Assembly (NCBI RefSeq): GCF_900103825.1 | Contig: NZ_FNIF01000004.1 | Location: forward strand, 124,001 to 188,000 | Length of the DNA: 64,000 nucleotides | Origin: Paenibacillus sp. yr247 | GTDB lineage: Bacteria; Bacillota; Bacilli; Paenibacillales; NBRC-103111 | Reading direction: 5' to 3' | Shown here: positions 43,651 to 62,004 of the stretch, piece after piece | How positions within the stretch are numbered: the first letter of the stretch is position 1 | Layout of the letters: each line of letters starts with the position of its first letter | Translations under genes and position numbers: made by a program | The notes under the pieces: model-generated | What the model saw: only the letters and a program-made list of their open reading frames with translations | The model's database searches: none | Told to the model about the DNA's origin: nothing

Positions 43651-44478
43651 TCATGCTTGCTCAGCGTCCGTTACCTTACCGTACCGTCCTCTTGGGATGA
43701 CAAGTTGGTCATCGGCGCCATTTTGCCTCATTAGTTCTTGTTTTAATTTCAACAAGGCCGCTGCGTTCCGTGAAGTAATTGACCGAACACCCATCTCAAT
43801 AAAATGCTTCATCTGCGCTTCTTCGTTTACCGTCCATATGCATACATCAAGGTTATTACTAGCTGTTATATGAAGCAGTTCGGCTTGAACAACACGGTAA
43901 TTTAAGTTGATACCGAAGCAAGCCGTGCTTTTAGCATCTTCACAGCATATTTTCGCCGCTTCTTCGTAGTTCTTAGTAAGAAATAACGCAGGATCTACGT
44001 TCAGTAGCTTTCGTATGCGCGGATTGACGTGTTGAACTATTTTTGCACGTTCGGTCTCACATCCTGACAGTATGACCTGCTCCAATAGCCTGTTCTTCTC
44101 TATCCAATTGGAAATAGGTTCGATACAGGCATCAGATTTAAGATCCAGATTCATTATTTTACCGCAAGCCTGAAGGATGGGGAGAACCGACTCCAGGGAT
44201 AGGATACGAATGGTCTCTCCTGGTGCACCATTATGGGCTTTGATATCCAACTTACTTAGTTCTGCATAATTCATTTGGGAAATCCAGCATTCTGTTCCAT
44301 CTGCCAAGTGAACGTTATCGTCGTGGGAAAGCACAAGGACCCCATCCGAGGTTATTCGTATATCTTCTTCGATAATATCGACCCCGAGATTCAGCCCGGT
44401 TTCAATGGAAAGCAACGTATTATCCGGTGTTCCCATACAACCGGTGTGAGCTGTAATTAGTGGAAATGGCTTTATCAT
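43651..44478 (-). CDS. Glycerophosphodiester phosphodiesterase family protein
   Basis: GDPD-fold enzyme of 275 residues, probably hydrolysing phosphodiesters to a sugar or glycerol phosphate and an alcohol. Motifs: ITAHTGCMGTPDNTLLSIET (the usual HRG reads HTG), EEDIRITSDGVLVLSHDDNV, and MNLDLK. Both catalytic His residues remain while the conserved Arg is replaced by Thr, which hints at an altered phosphate pocket. It is last in an operon with MgtC, CehA-like and accessory genes. Confidence 0.85.
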   Translation of the reverse strand: MIKPFPLITAHTGCMGTPDNTLLSIETGLNLGVDIIEEDIRITSDGVLVLSHDDNVHLADGTECWISQMNYAELSKLDIKAHNGAPGETIRILSLESVLPILQACGKIMNLDLKSDACIEPISNWIEKNRLLEQVILSGCETERAKIVQHVNPRIRKLLNVDPALFLTKNYEEAAKICCEDAKSTACFGINLNYRVVQAELLHITASNNLDVCIWTVNEEAQMKHFIEMGVRSITSRNAAALLKLKQELMRQNGADDQLVIPRGRYGKVTDAEQA

Positions 44479-44521
44479 TTTTCACCTCTTCATTAAAATA
44501 AATCCATGTCACGCCTCTTTG

Positions 44522-45280
44522 TTAATGTACCTGCCTGACTCCTTGATGGGTAATGTCTAAAGACTTGCCGCCTGACTCGGTCCAAACCACAAAATCTAAA
44601 GTATGGATCCGTTCCATTGCCTCCATGAGTTTAACTGGACTTTGTACATGAAGGACGAATTGCAGCTGCATGGTTGATGCTTCTCCGGAGTCGGTGGATG
44701 CCCCTTTGCGAATCATCTTGACGTTGACAATTTGAATCCCCTCCTCACTGAGGGCAGTAGCTATTTGACCAAGTGCGCTGGGGTTATCGAGCGTCTTGAT
44801 CGTCATCTCATGGTTTCTCCGGTTTCGCATGACATGTTTCTCCCACTTGTTAAGGACAAGCAAGCTGATTAATAGGAGTGTTGTGGAGAAAAAGGCTGCA
44901 TATAAAAAGCCGGCGCCAACACATAAACCGATTCCTGCTACTACCCAGATAGAAGCAGCTGTTGTCAAGCCACTTATGACCGAACCATTGCGCAAAATGG
45001 CTCCAGCACCGATAAAACCAATACCGCTAATCACCTGAGCTGCGAGACGTGCCGGATCAAGCCGGACATTCGGTTCGTTAGCAAACTGGGAAAACCCATA
45101 TATCGAGAGAAGCATGATCGTAGTCGACCCTAAGCAGACTAAAATATGTGTCCGGAAACCTGCCGCGTGATTATGCCATTCACGCTCTATTCCAACGGCT
45201 CCCCCCATGAAGACTGCCAAGACCAATCGAAGAAGCAGCTCGCCGTGGCTAATTGTCCAAATACTTGCTGTTGCCGTCAT
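44522..45280 (-). CDS. MgtC/SapB family membrane protein
   Basis: 252 residues with five membrane helices in the first 150. Family hallmarks are LVLAVFMGGAVGIEREWHNH, AGFRTHILVCLGSTTIML and ISGIGFIGAGAIL. A cytoplasmic ACT-like C-terminal domain follows (EGIQIVNVKMIRKG). MgtC proteins affect Mg and phosphate homeostasis by acting on ATP synthase or transporters. Its place between two phosphodiesterase genes suggests a link with phosphate release. Confidence 0.9.
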   Translation of the reverse strand: MTATASIWTISHGELLLRLVLAVFMGGAVGIEREWHNHAAGFRTHILVCLGSTTIMLLSIYGFSQFANEPNVRLDPARLAAQVISGIGFIGAGAILRNGSVISGLTTAASIWVVAGIGLCVGAGFLYAAFFSTTLLLISLLVLNKWEKHVMRNRRNHEMTIKTLDNPSALGQIATALSEEGIQIVNVKMIRKGASTDSGEASTMQLQFVLHVQSPVKLMEAMERIHTLDFVVWTESGGKSLDITHQGVRQVH

Positions 45281-45295
45281 GCTAGGTCACTTCCT

Positions 45296-46297
45296 TCAAG
45301 AGAAATAAATCGCGTTTGTGAATCCAATCATTGTGCTCACGTTACAGAAAACACCGTGCATCTCAGCGCGCAACCATTGAACATCGGTTAAATCTAGCGC
45401 TCGGCAGACTTTTGGTAAATCACGGGTCAGTTTAATCGAATCCAGTTGTCCTTTATTACTAACCAACTTCATGTCTAACGCGTGATCTGGAAGCTCCCAA
45501 TATCCGGTTCTTGCAGAGAAGTCAACACCAACTGTGATTTCGGTAAGCTGACCTGGGTTAAGCTTAACCTTATCCCCGATATCGGCCTTTTCACAACCCT
45601 CTGTACTTACACTGAGCTGCGGCAATGGTCCCATCGATACAGCTACCGCTCCGCGTTTTAGTGCGTCGAGTGCGGCCATTGCTAAGCCAGACGAAGAAAT
45701 GACCGTATCCCGAATTCCCAAGTACGTTGCCGAAATAGGCTCAGAAACGGGATCGGATACGTGCCAATCTCTTCCACTGGTGGCTGCAATCCGATGACCT
45801 CGGTTCAATAAATCTGTCCACATGGCTAGCGCGCGGCTGTTATTCCGCCTTATGGATGGAAATAAGCCGGACCATACTTCGATATAATCGATATCGTTCC
45901 AATCAGACACTTCAAACTCCCAAAAACATCCCGTACACATTGGACTGCCTACACGAAATGGATGGGCTACTCCGACAAGTCCGCCTTGGCGGTGGACACC
46001 TTCTATGCCTCGGTGGATATGGAAAGGGCTCAAATTCCGCCAATCCACATACTCAGTTAAACCAAGTGTCAGCATATGTCCGAAAAAAGTCGTCCACTCT
46101 AGACCAACGATCACCTCGACACCCGTCGCCGCAACGACCTCATCCCGATTTGACAAGCCTGTCATCGTATTGTGGTCTGTCAAAGCAACCCCGCGCAAAC
46201 CCAGTGCTTTTGCGGCCTCTGCAAGCTCCATAAGGGATTGCTTGCCATCGCTGTGAAAGGTGTGGCAATGCAGCTCAAATGGCAGCCATTGCTTCAT
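45296..46297 (-). CDS. CehA/McbA-type PHP phosphoesterase, stand-alone
   Basis: 333-residue PHP metallo-hydrolase. Metal motifs: FELHCHTFHSDGKQS, VALTDHNTM, GLEWTTFFGH, VAHPFRVGS and SGRDWHVSD, followed by a beta-rich C-terminal part ending TNAIYFS. The same order and end are found in the protein at 57435, which in addition has an N-terminal sandwich domain. Here that domain is encoded by the preceding gene, which overlaps by four bases (46294-46297). The enzyme class includes phosphodiesterases and, in CehA, an esterase. Confidence 0.85.
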   Translation of the reverse strand: MKQWLPFELHCHTFHSDGKQSLMELAEAAKALGLRGVALTDHNTMTGLSNRDEVVAATGVEVIVGLEWTTFFGHMLTLGLTEYVDWRNLSPFHIHRGIEGVHRQGGLVGVAHPFRVGSPMCTGCFWEFEVSDWNDIDYIEVWSGLFPSIRRNNSRALAMWTDLLNRGHRIAATSGRDWHVSDPVSEPISATYLGIRDTVISSSGLAMAALDALKRGAVAVSMGPLPQLSVSTEGCEKADIGDKVKLNPGQLTEITVGVDFSARTGYWELPDHALDMKLVSNKGQLDSIKLTRDLPKVCRALDLTDVQWLRAEMHGVFCNVSTMIGFTNAIYFS

Positions 46298-46755
46298 TCC
46301 CCTTTACCTCCATCCCATACGTGAAGGCGATATCGGCATTGTTCAGTAACTATGCAATGAAGATTGATCATGATTTTCAGCTGCCCTCTCGGAAAGTTCC
46401 CTGGAATTAATCCGGGGGAAGCCTCTTCTGTCGTAATCGTTACGTGTTGAACCGGATCATGTCGGTGACCGGCACCTCGAAACCCGTTTTCATCATCAAA
46501 TGAAAGTGTCATTAAATTTTGCAAAGGTAGAAAATCCCGCCAATTGTAAGAGGGTCTATGCTCTTTTAGAATAAATTGACCCAGCCCTTCCTTAATGAGC
46601 TCCTCAGCCTTCCCTTCATCCTCCAACGTTTTCGGTTCATAGGCGAATTCTGCATGCAGCTCTCTGCATTCCTGATGCAGGTGAACGGTATATGTAATAT
46701 GGCTCTTGGAACAGCTTGGTGTAACGGTTCCATCCGCTTTGAGTAGTGTTTTCAT
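46294..46755 (-). CDS. Stand-alone N-terminal domain of a CehA-like enzyme
   Basis: 153 residues, mostly beta-strand, with no catalytic motif. The segment FRGAGHRHDPVQHVTI, then ATPGLIPG-like EASPGLIPGNFPRGQ and INLHCIVTE corresponds to residues 65-120 of the fused protein at 57435 (HKVRGWSGGARSEFTI, KATPGYLPGELASGD, LHNAYKVPK). So this gene is a split version of that domain. It overlaps the PHP gene by four bases, which keeps the parts stoichiometric. ATG 46755 follows AGGAGGAA; an ATG nine codons upstream has no site. Confidence 0.7.
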   Translation of the reverse strand: MKTLLKADGTVTPSCSKSHITYTVHLHQECRELHAEFAYEPKTLEDEGKAEELIKEGLGQFILKEHRPSYNWRDFLPLQNLMTLSFDDENGFRGAGHRHDPVQHVTITTEEASPGLIPGNFPRGQLKIMINLHCIVTEQCRYRLHVWDGGKGE

Positions 46756-46809
46756 TACTTGTTCCTCCTGCCACAATTTCACTCATCGTTATCAGACTTT
46801 CTCCATTTG

Positions 46810-46862: not shown

Positions 46863-47708
46863 TTAATGCGACGAAACTTTGTCGTCCTTAATCATCGTTC
46901 GGATATAGAAATATCCCATAAAAGAACATAACACGAACATAAATACGGCGGTGGCACTGGCCAACTGTGTTTCCTGATAAACCGAGAAGACTTGCCGCAT
47001 GGCAACCCCAAGAACTTGAGGTGAGTTAGGTCCAATCAGGAAAGGCGCTGTAAAACCACCGATTATGCCCATAAAGCTGAAGGTAATAGCTACAAGCATC
47101 GTGCGATAGGTAAGCGGTACAATCAGTTTGAAAAAGATTTGCATTCGCCCTGCTCCAATATCCTTCGCACTTTCAATCAAGGCGTTCGGAATTCCGGATA
47201 ACGCTGAAGCGAGCAGCATCGTTGTGAACGGAATATTAAACCATAGGTTTGCTAGAATGATTCCCTTATAATCAAAAATGATCTTAGGAATCGATTCAAC
47301 TCCGAGCGGCAGTAATAACCGAGATAACCAGCCGTGGTTCCCGTACATGTTGATGATTCCGTAGGAAGCGATAACCGAAGGTACAAACATCGGAATCATG
47401 TACATTTTCTTGATGCCGTTTACGATCCGACCAGTGCTAAAACGCATGTAAATGGCCAGCGCATAACCGATAAGAACGACCGCAATCACTGAAATAATAG
47501 TCAGCTTCAGCGTAAATAAGATGTTGGCTGACATTCCCTTATCGGTGAACAACTTGATGTAATACTGTAATGTATAATTTCCGTTATCATCTCTAAAGCT
47601 CTCGTTGATGGCCAGGATGATCGGTGCGATCACGACAAAACATAAAAGTAGGAAGGATGGGATGACAAGCGATAGCCCAAATATCCCCTGTTTCACATTT
47701 TTATTCAT
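46863..47708 (-). CDS. ABC transporter permease (PhnU/YnjC-like)
   Basis: 281-residue inner-membrane permease of the ThiP/PotB/PhnU group with six helices and the EAA loop (ALIESAKDIGAGRMQIFFKLIVPL). Its start overlaps the binding-protein gene by four bases. With the second permease at 49934 it would form the heterodimeric channel of a four-gene importer. Confidence 0.88.
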   Translation of the reverse strand: MNKNVKQGIFGLSLVIPSFLLLCFVVIAPIILAINESFRDDNGNYTLQYYIKLFTDKGMSANILFTLKLTIISVIAVVLIGYALAIYMRFSTGRIVNGIKKMYMIPMFVPSVIASYGIINMYGNHGWLSRLLLPLGVESIPKIIFDYKGIILANLWFNIPFTTMLLASALSGIPNALIESAKDIGAGRMQIFFKLIVPLTYRTMLVAITFSFMGIIGGFTAPFLIGPNSPQVLGVAMRQVFSVYQETQLASATAVFMFVLCSFMGYFYIRTMIKDDKVSSH

Positions 47709-48847
47709 TGGCCTGCAACTTCTTGCTGCCAGCGTTTTTGAACCTCTTTGCCGAGATCGCCAAGGTTGAATGTCCGATAGCCTGCAGCCACATCCTTAAA
47801 CTCATCTCTCAGCTTCGATGGCATTTCCGTCCATTTAATGCCTGGGTAGCCGTACATTTTCTGAATGATAACCGTTTGTGCATCAGGTGTAAGAACAAAG
47901 TCAAGGAACTTAGCTACAGAATCCAAGTGCTCGGATAGCTTCGGAGCCATCAGATAAGTTGGTCCGCCAGTGAAGGATGGGCTAATTTGTGTCAGCTTCG
48001 TCGTTTCCGGAAGCAGCTTTTTGCTGATTTGCTCAAGCCCTTGGTCAGACCATGCAGGAATCATATCTACATCTCCGTTTGCCATTAAATCTAATGTACC
48101 TTGGTTTTTCTTCGGGTAAACCCCTTTTTGATACATGCTTGGATGAAGCTCTTTCAGAAGTTTAAAGCCTTTGTCCCATTGGTCTTTCCATTTCGGATCC
48201 TGGCTCGTGTTCGCTTCCGGTGGAAGAAAGTTATAAATGGCCGTTTGCACAAAAGAATCACCTGATCCACCGGTAGCAGGATCATTATAAGCAAAACGAC
48301 CTGGGTTTTTACGGATCCATTCGTAAAGCTCATCAGCTGTTTTAGGAGGATTTTTCACTTTCGCGCTATTGTAAGCCAGAACAACAGCCGAAGCACGATA
48401 AGGAATCCCCTTCCCTTCCAAGTTCTTCAAGTTGTTTTCATCAACTTTACTCAAATTAGGAATTTTCGTTTTATCAAATGCAGCCCAAAGATCGCCCTTC
48501 ATGCCTTTGGTCAAGTCGCTCAAGCTGCTTTCGTAGAGGTCAATATCACCTGATTTCTGGCCAGCCTGTTTGGCAGCGGTAATACGGTCAAGGGTGGATT
48601 GGCCGCCGGATCCGGAATCGATGTAAACCATCTTCACTTTAATGTTCGGGTTGGCTTTTTCAAACATCGGTATGAGTGTTTCCCACAGCTGTTTAACGTT
48701 CAGAGAGCCTGTAAAGTAGAATTGGAACTCATCCTGCTTCTGTGTGCCGCTCGCCGGTTTACTGCCACCACTGGCGCAACCAACCAAAGATGATAACACC
48801 AAAACTGAAGCTAATGCCACACTTAAACGTTTTTTCATACTGACCAT
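47705..48847 (-). CDS. ABC transporter substrate-binding lipoprotein
   Basis: 380-residue extracellular solute-binding protein. Signal: KKRLSVALASVLVLSSLVGC with the lipobox LVGC. The mature domain resembles the YnjB/PhnS-like class II group (ANPNIKVKMVYIDSGSGGQS, DELYEWIRKNPGRFAYNDP, ATGGSGDSFVQ). Many such proteins bind phosphonates, thiamine or anions. The neighbouring phosphoesterases make a phosphorylated or phosphonate substrate attractive, but this is inferred. Confidence 0.88.
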   Translation of the reverse strand: MVSMKKRLSVALASVLVLSSLVGCASGGSKPASGTQKQDEFQFYFTGSLNVKQLWETLIPMFEKANPNIKVKMVYIDSGSGGQSTLDRITAAKQAGQKSGDIDLYESSLSDLTKGMKGDLWAAFDKTKIPNLSKVDENNLKNLEGKGIPYRASAVVLAYNSAKVKNPPKTADELYEWIRKNPGRFAYNDPATGGSGDSFVQTAIYNFLPPEANTSQDPKWKDQWDKGFKLLKELHPSMYQKGVYPKKNQGTLDLMANGDVDMIPAWSDQGLEQISKKLLPETTKLTQISPSFTGGPTYLMAPKLSEHLDSVAKFLDFVLTPDAQTVIIQKMYGYPGIKWTEMPSKLRDEFKDVAAGYRTFNLGDLGKEVQKRWQQEVAGQ

Positions 48848-48879
48848 CCCTTATTCCTCCTTGAAATATTTATTATTTC

Positions 48880-49902
48880 TTAGGCTGACTTGTAAGTCAG
48901 AACCTTGGAAAACGTGACACTTACAAGCTGACCAGCCTGCAGTTCTTTCACCGCATCTCGTGGTAAAAACGCTTTCAACATGCCGCAGTCTGTTTCCAAT
49001 GAAACCTCTGCATAATGCCCAAGTATCATCACTTGATGGATCTTGGCAGAAAGCCCCTCATCTGGTTTCACGAAGACGATGTCCTCCGGCCGAACAGCCA
49101 CCGTGACCTCGCCATCTAGATATTCTGTGTTTTCGAATTGCAGCTGCTTGACATTCACTCGATTGCCGCTTGCGTTACCTCTAATAAAGTTCATTTTGCC
49201 AATAAATTGGGCGGTAAATAAGGTGCGAGGGTTGTCGTAAATCTCTTGTGGTGATGCCATTTGTTCAATATTACCCGCATTCATGACAACAATATTATCG
49301 GAAATGGAGAGTGCTTCCTCCTGGTCATGTGTTACGAATACCATCGTGAGTCCAGTTTTTGCTTGAATATCACGCAGCTCTTCACGCATTTCGTGACGAA
49401 GCTTCGCATCAAGCGCAGAGAACGGCTCATCAAGCAGCAGCACAGCTGGTTCAAGAAGAAACGCTCTTGCTACTGCAATACGCTGCTGTTGACCGCCGGA
49501 CAACTCTCCCGGAAATTTCTTTTGGGATCCAGGCAGCCTTACAAGATCAAGCACCCGGTGGATAGCTTCTTCGATTTCCTTGTTGCTCTTTTTACGTATT
49601 TTCAAACCGAAAGCGAGGTTGTTGTAAACGTTCATATGTGGCCACAAGTTGTAGCCCTGGAACACCATGGCTGTGGGTCTTTTTTCGGGAGGCAGCTTCA
49701 ATACGCTTTTGCCTTCGATTAAGATATCTCCTGAATCTGGCTCAAGAAATCCTCCAATGCTTCTAAGGACCGTTGTTTTACCACATCCCGATGGTCCCAG
49801 CAAGGTAACTAACTCGCCCTTCTTCACGTTGAGATTAATGTCTGAGACTCCCTCGCCTGTTTTATATCTTTTAGCTAAATTTTGGATGGATAGCTGAATC
49901 AT
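48880..49902 (-). CDS. ABC transporter ATP-binding protein
   Basis: 340-residue importer ATPase of the PotA/CysA/PhnT group. Walker A LLGPSGCGKTT, signature LSGGQQQRIAVARAF, Walker B VLLLDEPFSALD, His loop FVTHDQEE, and a C-terminal TOBE-like domain from about residue 235. Two permeases and a binding protein are in the same operon. Confidence 0.95.
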   Translation of the reverse strand: MIQLSIQNLAKRYKTGEGVSDINLNVKKGELVTLLGPSGCGKTTVLRSIGGFLEPDSGDILIEGKSVLKLPPEKRPTAMVFQGYNLWPHMNVYNNLAFGLKIRKKSNKEIEEAIHRVLDLVRLPGSQKKFPGELSGGQQQRIAVARAFLLEPAVLLLDEPFSALDAKLRHEMREELRDIQAKTGLTMVFVTHDQEEALSISDNIVVMNAGNIEQMASPQEIYDNPRTLFTAQFIGKMNFIRGNASGNRVNVKQLQFENTEYLDGEVTVAVRPEDIVFVKPDEGLSAKIHQVMILGHYAEVSLETDCGMLKAFLPRDAVKELQAGQLVSVTFSKVLTYKSA

Positions 49903-49933
49903 GGGGTACTCCTTCCATGTGTGTGTATTTGTT

Positions 49934-50758
49934 TTATTTCATTTGGAAACCGCTCGACATCACGTCGGCTGACACGAATCGCTGTGCGGCAACTAGAAGG
50001 ATAATGGTCGGTAGAGTCAAAATAATGGAAAAAACGGCACCGGCTGTACTCGGGTAGTCCGAAATAATCGAATACATGACAACTGGCATCGTACGGAAGT
50101 CAGGAATACCAACAAGATAAGTACCTTGTGCTTCATCCAAAGAACTGAGAAAGGTGAAGATCGAGGCGACCGTGATACCAGGCAGCGCCATCGGGAAAGT
50201 TATACTCCAAAATACCCGAAAGGGACTTGCGCCAACATCTCTTGCCGATTCCTCCTGTGCTTTATGTACATTTCGGAAGGCTGCTGACGGAATCCAAGTC
50301 ATATACATCAAGGTGTTGACGATATGAATAAGGACAACGCCGAGAAAGGTGTTCATTAAACCAAGCTTATAAAACAAAACCGCGATTGAAACGTACAAAC
50401 CCATTTTCGGGAAAGCATGTGTCAGTAGAAATGAAAACAAGAATATGCGGCTTAAGGGGAACCGAATTCTTGCAAATGCATAAGCGGCGGGAATGCAAAG
50501 AACAATAGAGAAAGCGGTTACAACAGTGGCGATCATAAACGATAGGCTAATGGATTTAACCACTTCTTGATTCGATAGCACGAACTTCCACCAATCCAGA
50601 GACCACGATTGCGGTATTGGCGCTGGATACTGCCACTTCCCTGTAAACGCTAATATTAAGAGGTTCAATAAGGGGCCCATAAAAAATGCAGCAAAAACGA
50701 CTAGAATAATGAATTCAATCAGCTTACGTCTACCAAGTGCTTTGAAATACCATAACAT
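49934..50758 (-). CDS. ABC transporter permease (PhnV/PotC-like)
   Basis: 274 residues with six helices and the EAA loop (QEESARDVGASPFRVFWSITFPMALP). First gene of the four-gene importer operon. The start ATG is ten bases after AAGGGGAGA. Operator-like palindrome at 50828 precedes it. Confidence 0.9.
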   Translation of the reverse strand: MLWYFKALGRRKLIEFIILVVFAAFFMGPLLNLLILAFTGKWQYPAPIPQSWSLDWWKFVLSNQEVVKSISLSFMIATVVTAFSIVLCIPAAYAFARIRFPLSRIFLFSFLLTHAFPKMGLYVSIAVLFYKLGLMNTFLGVVLIHIVNTLMYMTWIPSAAFRNVHKAQEESARDVGASPFRVFWSITFPMALPGITVASIFTFLSSLDEAQGTYLVGIPDFRTMPVVMYSIISDYPSTAGAVFSIILTLPTIILLVAAQRFVSADVMSSGFQMK

Positions 50759-50827
50759 GTGATTGCGATCTCCCCTTTCAACTATATCATCTTAATCTTA
50801 AACCGTTTTAATTCAGCCTCAGCAAAA

Positions 50828-50843
50828 GGGTAAGCGGTTACCC
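50828..50843 (-). promoter_or_regulatory. LacI-type operator before the ABC importer operon
   Basis: GGGTAA-GCGG-TTACCC has two perfect six-base arms around a GC-rich centre, 70 bases before the first gene. It resembles the site at 52739 (GTTAAGCGCTTACC). The LacI regulator at 52813 is the natural candidate to bind both. Confidence 0.6.
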
Positions 50844-51032
50844 TCTCTCTATTATTATGAAGAATTACCAGCATTTTATCAACTGTTTTTTGGAAAAATT
50901 ACTCAACTATTTCTGATGGTATGGATTCCAATTAGTTAAACAAAATTTAAATTGCTTGTATACACCCAATTAAGCGGAAATAACTTGCCAAGAATGTCCT
51001 TAAGCTCGCACGGAGCAGTCATTTGTGGACCG
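50844..51032. other. Non-coding leader of the ABC operon
   Basis: A/T-rich, no gene supported. The stretch 50870-50960 probably holds the promoter. Short plus-strand frames cross it but have no ribosome binding site. Confidence 0.4.
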
Positions 51033-51379: not shown

Positions 51380-51385
51380 ATTAAA

Positions 51386-52666: not shown

Positions 52667-52738
52667 TCCTCCTCTAGGCAGTTACAATTGCAATATCTTT
52701 ATTCACCCAGTTGATTGCGGAAATTGTCAAATATTGAA

Positions 52739-52752: not shown

Positions 52753-52812
52753 TTTTTATTAAAAAGATAGACCACTCTACCTTTTCGTTCAAATGAAGCA
52801 GGCTGAAGTGAT

Positions 52813-53961: not shown

Positions 53962-56598
53962 TTATGAAATGATTCTAAACGTATGCACCTCAAAAGGTTT
54001 GGTTAGAAGGCGAAAACGATTCGAGCTTAATTGAATGATTTCCAGATCAAGCTCAAGAAGATTTGTTAATCGAACCTCGCTCACCAAATCAGGAAGGACA
54101 ATTTCCACTTCTCTGCTAGATCCTGTACATTCACGAATTCGCAAAATACAGCCTTCCCCATTTTCTGCAACTTTCCAACAGCTGACAGCCATACTGTCTA
54201 GACCCGATGGTAAAAGTTCCACCACAGTCGCAGCATTCGGCTCAACCTGTTCGGCCGGAATCGTAACCGTCTGTGTCACGGTTTCTTGCGCTATTTTCCA
54301 TACTTCTCCATCTTTCCAATCCCCTTCATGAGGCACCAATCGATATCTATAGCGGAGATCACCGCCACTCCATTGTGGAAAGTTAGTTCCCCACCAATTG
54401 TTGAATAGGTTGAAGTGCAGTTCTGGTTTCTCCGGCTTGTAATCATGCTCAAAATCCCACATCCCATTCTTCCCAATAAAAAAGAGCGGAGAATCAAGGG
54501 GAATGATCGCCATTCCTGCGAATCCATTAGAGATATCGACGAAATTCTCACAGCAATTAAGCAGTGTACTCGAGGAAGAAATGATATCCGTGAGCGGGTT
54601 AATGACGGATCCCAGCTTATTAATGCTGAACTGTGGGCGTTCCAGCTTGAGCGGGAACAAGATGTGCCCTGACTCAGCCAACGGCGTTTCTTCTTTATTT
54701 TGCAATATATATTCGAAGTCCAAATACGCTGAGTCATCCGAAATCGTCATTTTCCATTCGATTTCTCGAGCGTTTCCATATTCAGCAATTGATTCAGGAT
54801 CTGAGGTAGCTGAACATACGATACCAACCGAACCGTCTTCTTCCCAAATACGGATATCCCTCAGCTGTGTTGTGAAAGTCAGCCTTTTTTGCTGCTCTGG
54901 GTAATCTGTTTTCCCAAAGTCATGTACGCCCCAATCGTAAAAGCGATAAGCATATTTTTTCAGGTATCGAGTGATTTCCTTACTTGAATAAATATCATAA
55001 TTATATTGACCAAATCCAGTTTCTGCTCGCTCGTCGATCCATTCCTTACGAAGTCTCTTATCCCACAGACTTCGTATCCATCCCGTGCTTCGGTCAACCT
55101 TCACGATGAGAAAGGGATTTTCAATGACTGCTTCCGTTTCCGTCATATAACCATGTGATTGTCTTTCACTTGCATAAGCGGACGAGAGAGCATTATTCTT
55201 TTTCGTTGTATATAAGAGCGTCTTATAGCCCAATGCAGGCAGGTTGCTTATCTGAACTTCCGCTCCACCCTCGCATGCTTGTAAAGACAGCACTTCTCCG
55301 GTATCCGAGTCAGTCAGCACTTCGTCTTCGCCCGGAAGATCACGACTTTCGATGAATGCTTTTGCATGACGACTCCAGCCAAGATGATTATGTACGCGAA
55401 GTACTTTGGAACCTTTGCCCTCGGTAAGCCGCCCACTCGTTATAGATTCTTTCGCTTCGTCAAGTGCACTCTGCGCTTTATTCAAATAATCGGCTTGTTC
55501 TGCCCAGGATTGCTCCATTCGCTGATAGCGTTCACTTTCCTTTAACCTGAGGAATGACTTCTTATCATAAGCTGTTCTCGGAAACAGGAATGTCTTACAA
55601 TCCATCCCCCAAGTGTGCTCACCAAACAGCAGCGTATGCTCATAGCTTTCGTCGATTTTGGCTTTCGCTTCCTTCAAGTTCACCAGTTTATGACCTGTAA
55701 ATTGACTCACTGCAAGTGCACTCTCCACAGCCGTTACTTGGCTTCGAAGCTCTCTAACTCTCGCAACCTCCCGTGGAGCCGTCCCTACGCCATGAATCCA
55801 CGAATCCGCCATATCCCCGCGAATAACCGGCAATTCAGGATTACGCGACAAGAAATCTTCGGCGAAATCACCTAAGCTGCCAATATGCAGCTCAGCATTT
55901 GAACCGCTTTCTCGAATGGAGGCCTTCATCTCTTCAATGATGCTGTCATCATGCGGTCCATGATTATCGCTTGTCTGAATCATGGCGAGCCACACGGGGT
56001 GTGTCCACTCCTCAGGCGGTAAAATGCCTGTACCGTAGGAGCCTTTGGAATAAAAGGTTAACAACCGCTCGCCATCTGGTCCTTCCCAATAAAAGACCGG
56101 TGGTACGTCTGGCGGTGTTGTAGCTGGATTGCAGCCAAGGTGAAGGATTTCCACTCCAGCCTTCTTAAGAAGGCTAGGTACTACCCAAGTATGACCAGGT
56201 ACATCTGTCATCTTGGCATCCTTCGGGTCATACCCGAACTGCTCGGTTAGACCTTGCGAGACATACATGCCGCGAATCCATTCCTCTAGACCGCAAAATT
56301 CGGTATGTGTCGTATAGGGAAGTTTGTGCCAGATCAGCTGACGATTCTCAAGGTAAGCGAGTGCCTTTTTCTTATCTTCTTCACTGCTTCCTTTCAAAGA
56401 TTGAAGCAGCGGCCATGCTGACATGGTCCAAACGTATTTTTCATGCTCGTCGTTATCTTTTGTTTTGTCACAAATATCGATGACTTCCTTCAGCATTTCG
56501 GACCGATATCTCTGAACTACATCTGACACCAAGCCCGTAAAACCAATGTCGAAATGAGTTTTAAATACGACGTAGATCTTCTCTAGTGTTGCATTCAT
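53962..56598 (-). CDS. GH38-like glycoside hydrolase (DUF5054 type)
   Basis: 878-residue enzyme related to alpha-mannosidases. The N-terminal domain has KTHFDIGFTGL, where the His-Asp metal pair of GH38 (H-x-D) is kept, MTDVPGHTW, and the SDNHGPHDDSI and EHTWGMD segments. A helical three-bundle and a C-terminal beta domain of about 400 residues follow. No signal peptide, so the enzyme works in the cytoplasm on imported oligosaccharides. It lies in the operon with EEP and PHP phosphoesterases. The bond cleaved is not certain because the DUF5054 branch is poorly characterised. Confidence 0.85.
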   Translation of the reverse strand: MNATLEKIYVVFKTHFDIGFTGLVSDVVQRYRSEMLKEVIDICDKTKDNDEHEKYVWTMSAWPLLQSLKGSSEEDKKKALAYLENRQLIWHKLPYTTHTEFCGLEEWIRGMYVSQGLTEQFGYDPKDAKMTDVPGHTWVVPSLLKKAGVEILHLGCNPATTPPDVPPVFYWEGPDGERLLTFYSKGSYGTGILPPEEWTHPVWLAMIQTSDNHGPHDDSIIEEMKASIRESGSNAELHIGSLGDFAEDFLSRNPELPVIRGDMADSWIHGVGTAPREVARVRELRSQVTAVESALAVSQFTGHKLVNLKEAKAKIDESYEHTLLFGEHTWGMDCKTFLFPRTAYDKKSFLRLKESERYQRMEQSWAEQADYLNKAQSALDEAKESITSGRLTEGKGSKVLRVHNHLGWSRHAKAFIESRDLPGEDEVLTDSDTGEVLSLQACEGGAEVQISNLPALGYKTLLYTTKKNNALSSAYASERQSHGYMTETEAVIENPFLIVKVDRSTGWIRSLWDKRLRKEWIDERAETGFGQYNYDIYSSKEITRYLKKYAYRFYDWGVHDFGKTDYPEQQKRLTFTTQLRDIRIWEEDGSVGIVCSATSDPESIAEYGNAREIEWKMTISDDSAYLDFEYILQNKEETPLAESGHILFPLKLERPQFSINKLGSVINPLTDIISSSSTLLNCCENFVDISNGFAGMAIIPLDSPLFFIGKNGMWDFEHDYKPEKPELHFNLFNNWWGTNFPQWSGGDLRYRYRLVPHEGDWKDGEVWKIAQETVTQTVTIPAEQVEPNAATVVELLPSGLDSMAVSCWKVAENGEGCILRIRECTGSSREVEIVLPDLVSEVRLTNLLELDLEIIQLSSNRFRLLTKPFEVHTFRIIS

Positions 56599-56636: not shown

Positions 56637-57428
56637 TTACAGTTGAAGCTGGGCAACCACTGGATAATGATCGGAGGGATACACCCCGTCTATTTGCCTT
56701 CTATCCACTACAGCCTCAAGGACTTCCACATCAGGAGATACAAAAATATAATCGATAGGCTCTCCAACCTCGCCGCCTTTAAAGTCGTGTGCTGTCAATC
56801 CGATTGGACCGGATAACGCTGCGTAGGTATCCTTTAGCCATGTTTGTAAACCTTGTAACTCGGACTCCCCGCGAAGGAAGCGAATCGGCAAATCCGTTGG
56901 CCGGCTATTGAAATCTCCCATTAGAATAATAGGAAGTGAATATTCCATTCTATGAGCAGCTATATATTTCCAAATTACCTTGCTGCCGAGATCTCTGGCT
57001 TGTTGGCTTTGATGATCTAAATGCGTATTATACACGATAAAGCGCTTCCTAGACTCCCTATGCTCGAATTCTGCCCAGGTGCATACGCGCGGAAAACCAC
57101 TATTCCAGCTGATCGAAGCCACTTCCTCGGGCGACTCCGACAACCAAAACTGTCCATACTGCTGAAGATCCAGGTCCACTTTTTTATAGAAAATAGCGCA
57201 ATGTTCATTCTCATGTGCACCGAAGCGGCCTTCGCCGATCCAGTCATATTCGTCTAACTTTGGATGCAATTCCTGAAGCATGTCAAAGTAGCCTTCCTGG
57301 GTACCCAAGACTAATGGTTGATAAGCTCTAATCGTCTCCATAACACGATCAATGCGATGCGGCCAGCTGTTAGGTCCATCCCCAGGGTTGTTGTACCTTA
57401 GATTAAAAGTCATCACTGAACATTCCAT
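56637..57428 (-). CDS. Endonuclease/exonuclease/phosphatase (EEP) family hydrolase
   Basis: 263 residues of the EEP fold, which includes inositol phosphatases and sphingomyelinases. Catalytic motifs are all present: MTFNLRYNN, VLGTQEGY, VYNTHLDHQS, LMGDFNSRPTD, PIDYIFVS and PSDHYPVVA. The start is ATG 57428 after AAAGGTGA (an upstream GTG is less well placed). No signal peptide, so it is cytoplasmic. It sits between GH38 and the PHP enzyme and would remove phosphate or cleave a phosphodiester. Confidence 0.92.
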   Translation of the reverse strand: MECSVMTFNLRYNNPGDGPNSWPHRIDRVMETIRAYQPLVLGTQEGYFDMLQELHPKLDEYDWIGEGRFGAHENEHCAIFYKKVDLDLQQYGQFWLSESPEEVASISWNSGFPRVCTWAEFEHRESRKRFIVYNTHLDHQSQQARDLGSKVIWKYIAAHRMEYSLPIILMGDFNSRPTDLPIRFLRGESELQGLQTWLKDTYAALSGPIGLTAHDFKGGEVGEPIDYIFVSPDVEVLEAVVDRRQIDGVYPSDHYPVVAQLQL

Positions 57429-57434
57429 AAGCAC

Positions 57435-58727
57435 TCACCTTTCAAAATAAATCGGATTCGTTAGCATGGCCATCAACGTCATATTCACTTCATCGAAATG
57501 GCGCCATATTTCGACTCGATAAAACATTCTACCGTTCTGTTCGAACTCAAACACCTGTGTTCCTGATTGCGAACAAATCTCTGACCTCTCCGTACCGCGT
57601 TCACTGATCAGCTTGATTTGATCTCCCTCGCGCAAATTCTCTACACTTAATTTCACGGTATCGGATACATTTGCAGGCACTGTATGACCTGTCATGTATG
57701 CCCCACAAGATAATTGGGCGAAAGGTCCATCCGGTGAATAGCTAATCCCCACATGACCTTTATCAATCGCTTGTAGAATACCATTTACTGTTTTCGTTTC
57801 CGCATAGACCCAGGTGCAAGGCATAGCATGTTTGACAAATCGATCGGGACGATGAACATCACTGCCTCCTACGGCTACGAGGTGTCTGCCCGACGCGAGC
57901 TGTTCCTGCCACCAAGCCAACGCACGTTCATTACGCGCTGTCCAAGGGCCATTCCAAACTTCCCACCAGTCATGATCCACATTCAAATCCCATTCCCATG
58001 GACAAAAATCACAATGAGGATGATTGAGTACGATCTTAGCCCCCCGCTCACGAGCTGTGGCAATACGTTCGTTCACATCAGCTTGACCGCTTACCCGAAA
58101 ATCATCGATAGGCTCTGCAACTCCAAGAAAATTGCTATGACCGAAGTTCGTCGTAAACTCCATCCCTGGTATCATGACTACGCTCGTATTGCGAGGATAC
58201 GAGTAGTTTTGACTAACGGCGTTGTGATCCGTCATGGCAATGAAATCACAGCCAAGCTGTTCCATGATGGATGCATTTTCCTCTAAAGTAAACGTGCCAT
58301 CGCTATTCACGCTATGTGTGTGAAGATCTCCTTTTAGCCAACGGGGTGTATGGAAATAAAACGTGATTGTTATCGTAACTTCGCAGCCTTCCTTCGGGAC
58401 CTTATAGGCATTATGAAGAACTGCCCAGTCCCCGGAAGCCAGTTCCCCTGGCAAGTAACCCGGTGTCGCCTTTTCCAGTCCGATCGTGAATTCGGAACGG
58501 GCACCTCCGCTCCAGCCCCGCACTTTATGGCTGTCTCTCACTCCGAGATCAATGACAGGTTTAGCCTCTCCGAACGAATTTACAAAGAAGCTAACATGTA
58601 TTTCTTCTACCTGGTCCGGCATTTCGAAAGGAACTTCAATATATGCACTTTGCTCCTCGTGCTTAATTTCTCTCCGATAAGAAGCAATCTGTTTTCTTCG
58701 ATTCTCTTGCATCACGACGCTCTTCAC
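57435..58727 (-). CDS. CehA-like PHP phosphoesterase with N-terminal sandwich domain
   Basis: 430 residues. Domain 1 (about 1-150) is beta-rich, with GEAKPVIDLGVRD and KATPGYLPGELASGD. Domain 2 is PHP: LKGDLHTHSVNSDG, AMTDHNAVSQ, GMEFTTNFGHSNFLG, LNHPHCDFCPWEWD and GGSDVHRPD. A C-terminal beta domain ends NPIYFER. The same layout is split over two genes at 45296-46755. Start uncertain: GTG 58727 lies directly after AAGGAGC. It is adjacent to the EEP gene in the same operon. Confidence 0.88.
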   Translation of the reverse strand: MKSVVMQENRRKQIASYRREIKHEEQSAYIEVPFEMPDQVEEIHVSFFVNSFGEAKPVIDLGVRDSHKVRGWSGGARSEFTIGLEKATPGYLPGELASGDWAVLHNAYKVPKEGCEVTITITFYFHTPRWLKGDLHTHSVNSDGTFTLEENASIMEQLGCDFIAMTDHNAVSQNYSYPRNTSVVMIPGMEFTTNFGHSNFLGVAEPIDDFRVSGQADVNERIATARERGAKIVLNHPHCDFCPWEWDLNVDHDWWEVWNGPWTARNERALAWWQEQLASGRHLVAVGGSDVHRPDRFVKHAMPCTWVYAETKTVNGILQAIDKGHVGISYSPDGPFAQLSCGAYMTGHTVPANVSDTVKLSVENLREGDQIKLISERGTERSEICSQSGTQVFEFEQNGRMFYRVEIWRHFDEVNMTLMAMLTNPIYFER

Positions 58728-58748: not shown

Positions 58749-59642
58749 TTACTCTTTATTAGCTCCAACCAGAATACCTTTGACGAAATACTTCTGTACA
58801 TAAGGATAAATAATAACGAGGGGTATCAGTGCAATCACAATCCCTGCCATCCTTACATTCGTTGTTACAATGAAATTACTTGAAGTAGAATCCGTATCCA
58901 CGATAAGAGATTTTAATGCAATCTGCAGCGTGTATTTGGCATGATCGCTAATATATAAGAGTGCAGGCGTAAATTGATTCCATCGACTAACAAATTCGAA
59001 AAGGGTAACGGTAGCAAGTCCCGCTGCAGCCAGCGGTATATACATGTTGAAAAAAATTCGAAATGCTCCCGCCCCATCCATCGTTGCCGATTCCGACATT
59101 TCAACAGGTACGGACAAAAAGAAATTGCGCATAAGCAAAATACTGAATCCGGAAACCATTCCGGACATAATTAATGCTGTTAACGAGTTTAGCAAGCCAA
59201 GTTCTTTATTCACCACATAAAGTGGGATCATGATAGCTTCGCTTGGAATAGTCATGGTGAGTAAAATCGCTGAGACCATCAGCTTTTTGCCGGGTAAACC
59301 CTTTTGAATCAACACATACCCCGCCATCGAGCACAGAAATACATGGCAAACGGTCCCCACTAACGTGACTATGACATTGTTCGTGAAGGGCAGGTACAAT
59401 TGCATGCGGTTCCAAACGGTTGAGAAGCCCTCAAAGCTGAATTCTTTTGGATATAAAATGATTCCCGGCTGCATGGAAGCGAAATTCGAAGAAAAGGCAA
59501 GCGCAAACGTATTTAACAGCGGGATGATCATCGTTGCAAGCAGTACAAACAAAAATAAGAAGTTAAACCCATCGAATAGTCGGCTTCCCCAGCCCGTATG
59601 TGGTCTGTTTGTATTCATGCTGTCCATTTCACCCCTCGTCAT
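58749..59642 (-). CDS. CUT1 carbohydrate ABC permease (LplC/MalG type)
   Basis: 297 residues with six helices and the EAA loop SESATMDGAGAFRIFFNMYIP. It overlaps the second permease gene by 14 bases. LplC-type systems import sugars or sugar phosphates; the ATPase is usually a shared MsmX and is absent here. In-frame ATGs at 59627 and 59618 are alternative starts. Confidence 0.9.
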   Translation of the reverse strand: MTRGEMDSMNTNRPHTGWGSRLFDGFNFLFLFVLLATMIIPLLNTFALAFSSNFASMQPGIILYPKEFSFEGFSTVWNRMQLYLPFTNNVIVTLVGTVCHVFLCSMAGYVLIQKGLPGKKLMVSAILLTMTIPSEAIMIPLYVVNKELGLLNSLTALIMSGMVSGFSILLMRNFFLSVPVEMSESATMDGAGAFRIFFNMYIPLAAAGLATVTLFEFVSRWNQFTPALLYISDHAKYTLQIALKSLIVDTDSTSSNFIVTTNVRMAGIVIALIPLVIIYPYVQKYFVKGILVGANKE

Positions 59643-60504
59643 AGCGAATGATCGCTCTAGTTACAAACGTAATAATCAATGTAGCAAAGATCACTAGAAA
59701 TCCTGCTGATGTCGCTAATCCAACTTTAAACTCCAAAATCCCTTTTTGATACGTATACATCATGATCACATCGACCTTTTTGGCGATGGCACCGTTTCTC
59801 ATGACGACGATTTGATCAAAAATCCTCAAAATACTTAGTACATTTAACATAATGACTACTTTCATCGTTGTAACCAACGAAGGCAGCGTTACAAAACGAA
59901 CCAATTGCCAGCGATTCGCGCCATCTATACGAGCTGCCTCATAAAGAGCGGGATTGATCGCTACAATGGTAGCTAAGTAAAGGATACAAATGAAGCCCAT
60001 TTCTTTCCAAACGGAAGTCAGCACCATGACCCATCTAGCTGTGTCTTGACTAGACATGAAGCCAATCGGCTTTACCGTACCGAACAACTTAAGAATCCCG
60101 TTCACAATACCAGTGTCCGGAGAAAGCATAAGAATCCACATGCCACCTACCACAACCCATGAAAACAGATGAGGCACATAAACGATCATCTGTATCACTT
60201 TCTTAAACCATGCTGAAAGAATTTCATTGAGAGATAACGCTAGTATAATTGGCATAATAAAACCGATTAAAAGCATACCCCCGCCGAGAATCAGTGTATT
60301 TTGAAGCATCTCCCAGAAAGCGTGATCCTTAAGTACGGTCAAATAGTTGTCAAAGCCTATAAATGGCCTGTTTCCGATTAGCCTGAACTCTTGAAAGCTG
60401 ATAATAAAGCCACGAATCAATGGATAATAGGAGAAGACAAGGAAATAAGCCATGATCGGAAGCATCATGATGTAAAGGGATTTGAATTTCCATACGGCTT
60501 TCAA
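59629..60504 (-). CDS. CUT1 carbohydrate ABC permease (LplB/MalF type)
   Basis: 291 residues with six helices; family features are YIMMLPIMAYFLVFSYYPLI, VWKEMGFICILYL and the EAA loop LYEAARIDGANRWQLVRFVTLP. Partner of the LplC-like permease. It follows the binding-protein gene by 66 bases. Confidence 0.92.
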   Translation of the reverse strand: MKAVWKFKSLYIMMLPIMAYFLVFSYYPLIRGFIISFQEFRLIGNRPFIGFDNYLTVLKDHAFWEMLQNTLILGGGMLLIGFIMPIILALSLNEILSAWFKKVIQMIVYVPHLFSWVVVGGMWILMLSPDTGIVNGILKLFGTVKPIGFMSSQDTARWVMVLTSVWKEMGFICILYLATIVAINPALYEAARIDGANRWQLVRFVTLPSLVTTMKVVIMLNVLSILRIFDQIVVMRNGAIAKKVDVIMMYTYQKGILEFKVGLATSAGFLVIFATLIITFVTRAIIRYDEG

Positions 60505-60570
60505 ACGAAGTCACCACCTTGCCTTTGATAGTCAAGGGAGTATGTGATCATACTCCCTTGTAGGAAAAAA

Positions 60571-62004
60571 CTAATCAATCAATTTAGCTGACTTTAATTG
60601 TTCACGCATTTTCTTTACAGCATCTGCCGCCGGCATTTCGCCAAGAATCGCTTTGAAGGAATACTCGTTAATAATTTTCTCAGCATCTGCCCATTTCGGA
60701 GGTGTCAATTCGAGCGTAGCATTCTTCATGACTAGATCTTGAGCTTCTTTTACGCCTGGAAGCAGACCAAACGGATTCGGGAACTTTTTGTTATACCAGA
60801 AAGGTACACCATGATCCATCGCGTGATCTTTACCTGCTTGAGTAAGCTCATATTTTCCGCCGTTTTCTGTGTAATCATTATCTTTAATACCCATGCTGCC
60901 AAGCACAATACCCTCTTTGGAGTGCCACCATTCGATGAATTCAAAGGCTGTTTTAGGACTTTGTGCATTCACTGGAATTACCCAAACGTCCGGATCTCCA
61001 CGACGCAGCATATATTTACCATCTGCTCCAGGTATCCCAGGCAGCCCCTTAGCTTCAAATGGGGTATTAGCATCCTTTAGCTTTCTAGTGTTGTTCAGCA
61101 TTCCGACCCAAGCATCCCAATATGTAATCATGCCTACACGGTCAGCAAGGAATAAGTTGCGCATTTTGCCTGTATCGTTTGTTGCAAAGTTTGGATCCAG
61201 AATGCCTTCTTTATAAAGCTTATTCAGCCACTCATACACAGGAATAGCCGCATCTGTTGAATAAGGAACATCCAACTTCCCATCCTTCTCTACATAACGC
61301 TGTTTGAGACCTGCTCCGCTGAAGAAACCTTGTAATTCATACATGCCTGCTGTACTTAAACCGTAGGTGTCTTTCTTTCCATTGCCGTCTGGATCCTGCT
61401 CCGTGAAAGCTTTCAAGACCTTATAATATTCATCAAACGTTTTCGGCTCTTGCAGGTTCAGCTTTTTTAACCAGTCAGCGCGAACGATAGGCATCGTTCC
61501 ACCTTGGAATTTACTAAATACACCGTATATTTTCCCATCTTTCGTTTTCACTTGATCCCACTCTTGCGGTGGTAAAACTTCTGGATCCTGCAAAGTTTTT
61601 GAGCCTTTTATTTGATCCGTCAAAGGCATTAGAATCCCTTGTGCGGTCAGTGTGTTCATAAGTTCCTTGCTCACTTGAAGAAGGTCAAATTTCTCGCCCG
61701 AGGATACGGCAGCCATCAGTTTCGTGTTGTAATCCGAAGCAGGCTTCTCCAGCTTCGCTTTGATGCCTGTCAAGCGTTCAATTTCCTTTTCAAATAGGAC
61801 ATTTTCTTCCGGAGTTTTCCCGCCAATGACCGCGGACATCATGCGTAGGGAACGTTCCTCTTTCTTCCCTTCCGTCTTCGGCTGATCAGACATTTTTGGA
61901 GTTTCGGATCCTGAGTTGCTGTTAGTGCTACAACCCGCAGCTAGACTTCCGACTAGCAGTACCGCCACCATAGAACTTACGACTTTCGATTTCTTGGCTT
62001 TCAT
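60571..62004 (-). CDS. CUT1 extracellular sugar-binding lipoprotein (LplA type)
   Basis: 477 residues with a lipobox (SLAAGCS) after a 25-residue signal. The mature domain has LRMMSAVIGGKTPEENV and VRADWLKKLNLQEPKTFDEYY, characteristic of LplA/YtcQ-like proteins. It is the first gene of the operon with the two permeases, PHP, EEP and GH38 genes. The ligand is unknown but should be the substrate of those enzymes. Confidence 0.9.
   Translation of the reverse strand: MKAKKSKVVSSMVAVLLVGSLAAGCSTNSNSGSETPKMSDQPKTEGKKEERSLRMMSAVIGGKTPEENVLFEKEIERLTGIKAKLEKPASDYNTKLMAAVSSGEKFDLLQVSKELMNTLTAQGILMPLTDQIKGSKTLQDPEVLPPQEWDQVKTKDGKIYGVFSKFQGGTMPIVRADWLKKLNLQEPKTFDEYYKVLKAFTEQDPDGNGKKDTYGLSTAGMYELQGFFSGAGLKQRYVEKDGKLDVPYSTDAAIPVYEWLNKLYKEGILDPNFATNDTGKMRNLFLADRVGMITYWDAWVGMLNNTRKLKDANTPFEAKGLPGIPGADGKYMLRRGDPDVWVIPVNAQSPKTAFEFIEWWHSKEGIVLGSMGIKDNDYTENGGKYELTQAGKDHAMDHGVPFWYNKKFPNPFGLLPGVKEAQDLVMKNATLELTPPKWADAEKIINEYSFKAILGEMPAADAVKKMREQLKSAKLID

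Follow-up and report, generated by a model that had tools for sequence, protein, structure and literature searches.

Soil commonly contains inositol lipids from fungi, plants and actinobacteria, yet bacterial inositol catabolism has mostly been described from free inositol or from phytate. Importers that serve the use of phosphodiesters or phosphonates are known in UgpABCE-UgpQ and PhnSTUV. The accessible part of one paper treats phytate as an inositol source for bacteria (PMC9430895). The locus of interest here lies in a 64 kb stretch (hereafter, the window; C20:124001-188000) of the 6.25-Mb genome of Paenibacillus sp. yr247, and encodes two importers together with several hydrolases of phosphate-ester and glycosidase families. 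We propose, at about even chances, that the locus imports phosphodiester-linked inositol compounds—those of its first unit being likely mannosylated—and hydrolyses them in the cell to inositol for the iol (myo-inositol catabolic) pathway. Both units have relatives that are linked to the use of inositol, and both are accompanied by enzymes of phosphate-ester families, so that an inositol phosphodiester is the simplest substrate common to the two; mannose on the substrate of the first unit is suggested by the presence of a GH38-type gene.

Open reading frames (ORFs) of the window were searched with Pfam and NCBIfam. By its protein relatives, the window belongs in or near Paenibacillus. All genes of the locus lie on the minus strand, with intergenic gaps of less than 100 bases, or overlapping genes, within each of two units. 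In transcription order, unit 1 reads LacIA-SBP1-PermX-PermY-PHP1-EEP-GH38 (63120 down to 53962) and unit 2 reads PermB-ATPase-SBP2-PermA-HP162-PHP2-MgtC-GDPD (50758 down to 43651), with LacIB (52813-53823) and then Gfo (51386-52666) standing between them. The cluster consists of two units, which are found apart in other genomes.

Relatives of unit 1 show a link to inositol. When the GH38 protein was used as query, 23 loci were recovered: 20 from Paenibacillus, two from Clostridiales metagenome-assembled genomes (MAGs) and one from another MAG (loci are cited by number where they must be told apart). In five of the 23 (L007, L011, L012, L017 and L018), iol genes follow GH38-LacIB. L007 carries a full iol operon after GH38: LacIB, iolD, iolE, iolG, iolB, iolC, an aldolase gene in the iolJ place, and iolA. 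Here, iolD, E, G, B and C and the methylmalonate-semialdehyde dehydrogenase (iolA) score above their NCBIfam cut-offs, and the aldolase above that of the general family TIGR00167 only. Loci L011, L012 and L018 contain most of the operon up to the flank end, and L017 iolD and iolE only.

A profile search with PHP1 of 296 genomes of the order revealed 66 places in 61 genomes (E-value at most 1e-100). At least 15 of these places lie within 20 kb of iolD (4.8-19.2 kb; at least 10 within 8 kb), in five genus codes and two families. About 0.39 of 66 would be expected if iolD were placed at random at 1.1 copies per 7.5 Mb; the corresponding p-value, 3.5e-19, is a guide only, the species being related. 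Furthermore, iolD is present in 52 of the 61 genomes with PHP1 versus 136 of the 235 without (Fisher p 4.6e-5; uncorrected for genome size and kinship). In a tree of PHP1 with 58 rows, at least six changes of the iolD label are needed, so that the iol-PHP1 arrangement is not one recent event, and in five of five independent tree pairs LacIB and iolD changed in the same direction (p 0.0625). Forty of the 66 places were fetched (20 kb each, distant ones first; at least four repeat the PHP1 of L010, L012, L014 and L020). One of them, L074, comes from another family and reads iolG-D-E-B-C-J-A-LacIB-PHP1-EEP, with neither GH38 nor importer in the fetched 20 kb. Two others, L083 and L085, show EEP-PHP1, LacIB, one more gene, and then iolD, iolE and iolG, again with no GH38 in the fetched 20 kb.

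A link of the same kind is seen in relatives of unit 2. SBP2 relatives occur in 86 of the 296 genomes (E-value at most 1e-80), and 12 close (at least 75% identity, L092-L103) and eight more distant (L104-L111) unit 2 loci were fetched. Three of the 12 close relatives lie beside iol genes; the other nine have no iol gene in the fetched stretch. L097 reads PermB-ATPase-SBP2-PermA-HP162-PHP2-MgtC-Gfo-iolD-iolE-iolC-iolA, in which the Gfo between MgtC and iolD is 65% identical to that of the window. In L099 and L100, iolG-B-C-A precede GNAT-PermB-ATPase-SBP2-PermA by a few kb.

The regulator between the two units is of the kind found beside iol operons. LacIB (PF00356, 5.3e-20) is 52% identical to the LacI protein of an iol operon elsewhere in the same genome (L049) and 35% identical to that of a second one (L048). 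It adjoins iol genes in L007, L011, L012, L017, L018, L074, L083, L085, L090 and L091 (L091 being L012 again). The iolD promoters of L007, L011, L012, L017, L018 and L049 (not L048) contain a palindrome, operator B (GRTTAAGCGCTTAAYC), and a position weight matrix (PWM) trained on iol promoter sites alone recovers it at five of five iolD promoters outside the training set (L074, L083, L085, L090 and L097). The two best PWM matches of the entire window lie upstream of Gfo (52738-52753, 19.7 bits) and upstream of PermB (50828-50843, 15.0 bits); no site reached 14 bits in 20 shuffles.

The PermB site is conserved. With a threshold of 13 bits, operator B precedes PermB or the leader gene in all 12 evaluable loci: the window, L001, L014 and L093-L101 (L092 and L001 are one and the same contig; PermB is cut off or missing in L102 and L103, which were left out). 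Scores for the wider PHP1 and SBP2 locus sets run about 1 bit above those of the window set, due to another background, and the weakest there is L101 at 13.6. Sites also precede the first gene of partial units in L002 (14.9 bits), L003 (23.3 bits) and L004 (21.6 bits). Of 19 Paenibacillus loci with LacIA, 12 have an operator B site of at least 13 bits upstream of that gene (L001, L003-L005, L007, L010-L012 and L015-L018); the window's own site scores 13.0, and L014 has almost no sequence upstream of LacIA. None of nine paralogue loci (L040, L104-L111) has a site within 300 bases of PermB (for L107, 200 bases were available), and in L108 two weak sites lie at a greater distance, in front of the LacI gene. 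In a consensus scan of the genome, the sole sites with zero or one mismatch lie upstream of an iolD. Support for the two window sites comes from the iol-trained PWM and from conservation, not from the consensus scan. With an orthologue beside iol genes and one operator type at iol promoters, LacIB has the marks of an inositol regulator; its release by inositol or an iol intermediate is predicted, and we infer that it is the reader of operator B. An operator-B-like site also occurs inside the EEP gene (57036-57051, 12.7 bits), probably by chance.

Unit 1 has, in addition, an operator type of its own. Operator A is an even, CG-centred palindrome present upstream of LacIA in the window—as two overlapping copies (RTTAAACCGGTTTAAY, with zero and one mismatch; 63158-63187)—and in 19 of 19 Paenibacillus loci with LacIA; in L008, which has no LacIA, it stands before GH38. 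Of the 40 wider loci, 31 have an intergenic copy with up to two mismatches ahead of LacIA, SBP1 or PHP1. Operator A proved of no use as a key to further genes: the genome contains 13 matches per strand at up to two mismatches versus 22 in the control, a number not above chance. Three operator-A-like sites (C34:145982-146143) precede an Opp-type ABC (ATP-binding cassette) operon (L050, L051), downstream of which lie two ORFs that by eye are LacIA-like and glycosidase-like, so that another branch of this regulator type may be present here; these sites were rejected as LacIA targets, being better explained by the LacIA-like gene.

In the proposed pathway, SBP1-PermX-PermY, probably with a housekeeping ATPase, would import a glycosylated inositol phosphodiester. 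Deacylated phosphatidylinositol mannosides and mannosyl-inositol-phosphate head groups would fit as the unit 1 substrate, going by protein families and gene context. PHP1 would then open the phosphodiester, EEP would take off the remaining phosphate, and GH38 would remove alpha-mannose. In parallel, SBP2-PermA/B-ATPase would import a plainer inositol phosphodiester (e.g., glycerophosphoinositol), to be cut by HP162/PHP2 and the GDPD-like enzyme. LacIA would sense the glycoside, and LacIB, as an inositol-type regulator, would couple the expression of Gfo and unit 2 to the use of inositol, and that of unit 1 more weakly. The freed inositol would be degraded by the iol operons located elsewhere in this genome.

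A number of observations weigh against this pathway. Firstly, the two iol operons of this genome sit on other contigs and neither unit adjoins iol genes here; the second of these operons (L048) has no operator B match. Secondly, the consensus scan at up to three mismatches gave 114 sites per strand versus 80 in the control, and alone lends no support to the two window sites; the weaker operator B sites near LacIA and SBP1 may be CcpA sites, the AAGCGCTT core being also found in these. Thirdly, in the 17 loci fetched from family f10, the 20 kb with the LacIA-importer-PHP1 core contain neither iol genes nor GH38 nor EEP, and operator B occurs upstream of LacIA in none of the 17; without an inositol link in this core, the ancestral PHP1 substrate need not contain inositol. 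Four of the f10 loci (L056, L060, L062 and L063) instead carry an alpha-L-fucosidase-like gene just upstream of LacIA, where GH38 is missing (the f10 upstream genes form one cluster, of which the member tested, in L056, matches PF01120 at 4.9e-93). Fourthly, EEP is missing from six of the 20 Paenibacillus GH38 loci and its presence does not track iol linkage on the PHP1 tree, on which gains of the iol-PHP1 arrangement are inseparable from losses. Finally, three of the proteins fit imperfectly: Gfo falls far short as an IolG inositol 2-dehydrogenase (TIGR04380, 76.7 versus a cut-off of 355 bits), T or S occupies the motif arginine position in all six GDPD copies aligned, and a phosphodiester substrate for the PHP proteins is not certain, given that their family, NF038032, takes its name from carbamate hydrolases (CehA, McbA; carbaryl hydrolase activity). 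A PI-PLC-X search gave no match and is uninformative, as the control likewise matched in none of 14 genomes.

The constancy of unit 1 was examined in both locus sets. LacIA-SBP1-PermX-PermY-PHP1 stands before GH38 in 19 of the 20 Paenibacillus loci, with LacIB matched in nine and EEP in 14. Both Clostridiales loci contain SBP1-PermX-PermY-PHP1-GH38 at 30-42% identity, and the third MAG GH38 alone. Among the 40 fetched PHP1 loci, SBP1 (at least 50% identity), PermX, PermY and PHP1 occur together in 32, a more distant importer is present in seven, and no importer lies in the stretch fetched for the remaining one (L074); 10 contain EEP, five GH38 and five iol genes. From these counts, PHP1 with its importer is the constant part of the unit, to which GH38 and EEP are additions. 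An earlier, model-made annotation of this stretch (the original prediction) had staked its claim—a locus for the catabolism of a phosphodiester-linked glycan or glycolipid head group—on the co-occurrence of these genes in other genomes. This is borne out for unit 1 minus EEP, in Paenibacillus loci that were themselves found by their GH38 gene, and less regularly for EEP; unit 2 is separate, and joins unit 1 in some genomes only.

The gene content given by the original prediction is largely upheld. The window contains its two importers, one of four genes with its own ATPase (46863-50758) and one LplABC-like and lacking an ATPase (58749-62004), as well as two PHP proteins, both above the NF038032 cut-off, and the GDPD, EEP-fold, GH38-like and Gfo/Idh/MocA genes. 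In agreement with the original prediction, none of the five hydrolases begins with a signal peptide, and SBP1 and SBP2 both begin with a lipobox-type signal (translations judged by eye). Both of the LacI genes named exist, with only LacIB inside the interval covered (43651-62004) and LacIA outside it. The reported BadF-kinase remnant was not recovered: none of 20 ORFs scanned between 39070 and 63969 gave a BadF match, and the gap at 50759-51385 is a decayed GNAT gene. MgtC and HP162 had been missed. Its general reading, the intracellular breakdown of a phosphodiester-linked glycan or head group, stays the favoured one. As for the candidate substrates, preference goes to those containing inositol (mannosylated phosphoinositides and GPI-type glycans), because each unit has relatives adjoining myo-inositol catabolic genes and unit 2 bears operator-like sites of those genes; teichoic acid has no pointer in these results, and phosphomannan is less favoured. 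No excess of promoter-like (33 versus 34.5 by chance) or terminator-like (15 versus 17.4) matches was seen.

Unit 1 begins with LacIA (62098-63120; PF00356, 6.7e-15), a LacI-family regulator, followed by SBP1 (60571-62004; PF13416, 2.5e-21), a lipoprotein binding protein of LplA/AlgQ type that, among solved structures, matches PDB 5xs8 at 1.2e-21 and AlgQ1/AlgQ2 at about 1e-18. The permeases are PermX (59629-60504; PF00528, 8.4e-12) and PermY (58749-59642; PF00528, 1.2e-14). PHP1 (57435-58727; NF038032, 202.4 bits against a cut-off of 80) is a CehA/McbA-type PHP hydrolase with an N-terminal beta domain, and a predicted phosphodiesterase. Its residues H131, H133, H163, E185, H192, H231, D285 and H287 (P0001 numbering) are invariant across 31 aligned sequences; we take these to be the presumed metal ligands, making up the full PHP metal-binding set. 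The PHP1 structure model (predicted local distance difference test, pLDDT, 93.4) has 3e38 as its best PDB fold, and also matches TM0559 and RNase AM.

These features bear on an alternative that we consider unlikely, and yet the first to be weighed: that unit 1 serves a glycoside without phosphate, importing an inositol glycoside (galactinol-like or mannosyl-inositol), while the PHP proteins would, like CehA/McbA, be esterases or lactonases whose substrate is an acyl or carbamoyl ester. The naming of NF038032 for CehA and McbA would agree with this, as would the resemblance of SBP1 to the alginate-binding AlgQ proteins, and the inositol link holds without any phosphate. On the other hand, EEP and GDPD both belong to phosphate-ester families, and in the 20 kb fetched for L074, L083 and L085, EEP and PHP1 stand together near iol genes and GH38 is absent. 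In addition, the nearest solved fold to PHP1, 3e38, is named as the solved homologue of the diesterases Sb-PDE and No-PDE in the accessible part of PMC11656708.

Unit 2 is preceded by Gfo, a Gfo/Idh/MocA oxidoreductase (PF01408, 1.5e-22), and by the decayed GNAT acetyltransferase gene (50759-51385), which over 121 amino acids is 72% identical to its intact equivalent in the corresponding position of L001. The intact gene matches PF13527 (1.3e-12) and stands directly before PermB; GNAT relatives also precede PermB in L096, L098, L099 and L100. The importer consists of PermB (49934-50758; PF00528, 5.8e-14), a PhnT2/PotA-like ABC ATPase (48880-49902; PF00005, 4.7e-34), SBP2 (47705-48847), a YnjB-like lipoprotein binding protein (PF13416, 2.2e-27; NF008633, 104.3 bits versus a cut-off of 203), and PermA (46863-47708; PF00528, 1.4e-12). 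Comparison of SBP2 with solved structures gave no match. By family scores the importer is of Phn/Pot type, yet it falls below the PhnT2 and PhnU2 cut-offs; a 2-aminoethylphosphonate importer was rejected, the ATPase scoring 364.9 against 457.7 bits (TIGR03265). HP162 (46294-46782), a protein of 162 amino acids with no Pfam match, is a counterpart of the N-terminal domain of PHP1 (25% over 80 amino acids, E-value 1.2e-6), and is followed by PHP2 (45296-46297; NF038032, 258.9 bits against a cut-off of 80), a CehA/McbA-type PHP hydrolase whose metal-binding residues were judged by eye only. Together, HP162 and PHP2 are the equivalent of a PHP1 protein divided in two (27% over 438 columns). In L014, an ORF of about 450 amino acids with no Pfam match lies between PermA and HP162 (L014:12835-14181); L094-L096, L098, L099 and L102 have a gap of similar size, and the ORF is not in the window. 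The unit ends with an MgtC-family membrane protein (44522-45280; PF02308, 2.5e-41) and the GDPD-family protein (43651-44478; PF03009, 3.1e-26, 93.4 versus a gathering threshold of 23.6 bits), which has HT in place of an HR motif. We take HR, with its phosphate-binding arginine, to be usual in the GDPD (GlpQ/UgpQ type) family; given H(T/S) in its place, the reaction of the GDPD-like protein may differ from that of the family.

A second alternative, also unlikely and placed after the first, is that the two units are unrelated: unit 2 would be a general phosphodiester importer for phosphorus, and unit 1 a glycoside locus, brought together by chance or by island build-up. The whole unit 2 importer is indeed within the flank in only two of the 20 Paenibacillus GH38 loci (L001 and L014). 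Moreover, a unit 2 paralogue with its own LacI gene lies about 50 kb away (L040, C20:100000-119999, 10088-17480), reading LacI-PermB-ATPase-SBP2-PermA-HP162-PHP2-GDPD, with no MgtC, no operator B match, and 43-81% identity to unit 2. Against this stand the iol neighbours found separately for relatives of each unit, and the presence of operator B before unit 2 in every evaluable locus and before LacIA of unit 1 in 12 of 19. The paralogue adjoins two ORFs without an NCBIfam match at the cut-off used (isomerase-like and oxidoreductase-like by eye).

The two remaining enzymes of unit 1 are EEP and GH38. EEP (56637-57434; PF03372, 4.6e-19) is a relative of EEP-fold phosphatases; its assignment to the type of 4c1r, a mannosyl-6-phosphatase (6.9e-30), by closest solved relative was rejected, 3g6s—which has no stated function—being closer (5.6e-38). 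GH38 (53962-56598; PF01074, 8.4e-12, 45.5 bits versus a gathering threshold of 25; PF16477, 1.1e-21) is a GH38/DUF5054 glycosidase, predicted to be alpha-mannosidase-like. Its structure model (pLDDT 87.4) matches whole alpha-mannosidases, best SpGH38 (2wyi, with swainsonine) at a template modelling (TM) score of 0.70 and 14% identity. Profile comparison with Saccharomyces cerevisiae Ams1 gave a match that is weak (10.2 bits) and in which D132 falls on the nucleophile motif and H328 on a zinc-ligand His. Across 31 aligned sequences D17, D132 and H328 are invariant, and H15 nearly so. The protein has the fold and the catalytic Asp/zinc-ligand motifs of alpha-mannosidases, and its activity is predicted from these. 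Among the matches listed in a literature search on GH38/DUF5054, all hold the GH38 term only and none DUF5054; the accessible part of a plant GH38 paper concerns glucuronyl-mannose and is of no help for the DUF5054 branch (PMC12248283). Elsewhere in the same genome, L041 (C62:30000-49999) contains a 692-amino-acid DUF5054 protein and an apparently broken DUF5054-like stretch, with a Gfo-type and a GH88-like protein. Scavenging of yeast phosphomannan or N-glycans—with EEP as a mannosyl-6-phosphatase, GH38 as an alpha-mannosidase, PHP1 cutting Man-P-Man diesters and the iol link incidental—is improbable, its pointers being limited to the EEP resemblance to 4c1r and the GH38 fold, with 3g6s closer to EEP and with PHP1 and EEP found near iol genes in the three GH38-less loci L074, L083 and L085.

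The import and breakdown of inositol phosphodiesters is the reading we retain, in the graded form given above. A more specific version is possible and is put forward tentatively: a dedicated importer-to-central-metabolism pathway for the head groups of mannosylated phosphoinositides, whether these stem from phosphatidylinositol mannosides of actinobacteria or from mannosyl-inositol lipids of fungi. In such a pathway, a CehA-type PHP enzyme would act as an inositol phosphodiesterase, EEP as an inositol/mannosyl phosphatase and a GH38 protein of DUF5054 type as a mannosyl-inositol hydrolase; plain inositol diesters would be handled by the split PHP/GDPD-like module, and control would lie with a LacI inositol regulator. 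No description of it was found in the literature searched, with most subscription journals outside the reach of the search. If correct, it would offer a route, open to testing, by which head groups of inositol lipids enter the iol pathway, and would suggest a substrate class for three enzyme branches with none seen in that literature: DUF5054-type GH38 proteins, CehA-type PHP proteins with the beta domain, and H(T/S) GDPD-like proteins. Outside the locus, the window contains a T-box leader (24179-24400, minus strand; RF00230, 96.2 bits) and a streptomycin adenylyltransferase-family gene (33652-34521, minus strand; PF04439, 5e-121).

The locus can be placed beside five groups of described systems. 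UgpABCE-UgpQ and PhnSTUV resemble unit 2 in having an importer encoded with a GDPD-family gene, or in being of Phn/Pot type by family scores; unit 2 differs in adding a split CehA-type PHP protein and an inositol-linked operator, and in its scores below the PhnT2 and PhnU2 cut-offs. The GH38 alpha-mannosidases SpGH38 (2WYI) and Ams1 (5JM0) share the whole fold and the catalytic motif positions with the GH38 protein, which differs in belonging to the DUF5054 branch, at 14% identity in the fold alignment. The mannosyl-6-phosphatase 4C1R, which we take to be from a Bacteroides yeast-mannan system, and the EEP protein 3G6S are sequence relatives of EEP; they differ in gene context, EEP being grouped here with PHP1 and also, in certain genomes, with iol genes. 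The PHP phosphodiesterases Sb-PDE, No-PDE and Elen0235 have the PHP fold and the conserved presumed metal ligands in common with PHP1, and differ in acting on flame-retardant diesters or a cyclic phosphodiester, with an inositol or sugar importer unmentioned in the accessible part of the paper (PMC11656708). Lastly, the bacterial iol operons with LacI-type regulators (the IolR groups of PMC4052901, in its accessible part) are alike in their LacI-family regulator, their even, CG-centred palindromic operator, and their iol neighbours or presumed targets. What sets the present locus apart from them is that a regulator of this type also sits with importers and with PHP, GDPD-like, EEP and GH38 genes, a combination unmentioned in that part of the paper.

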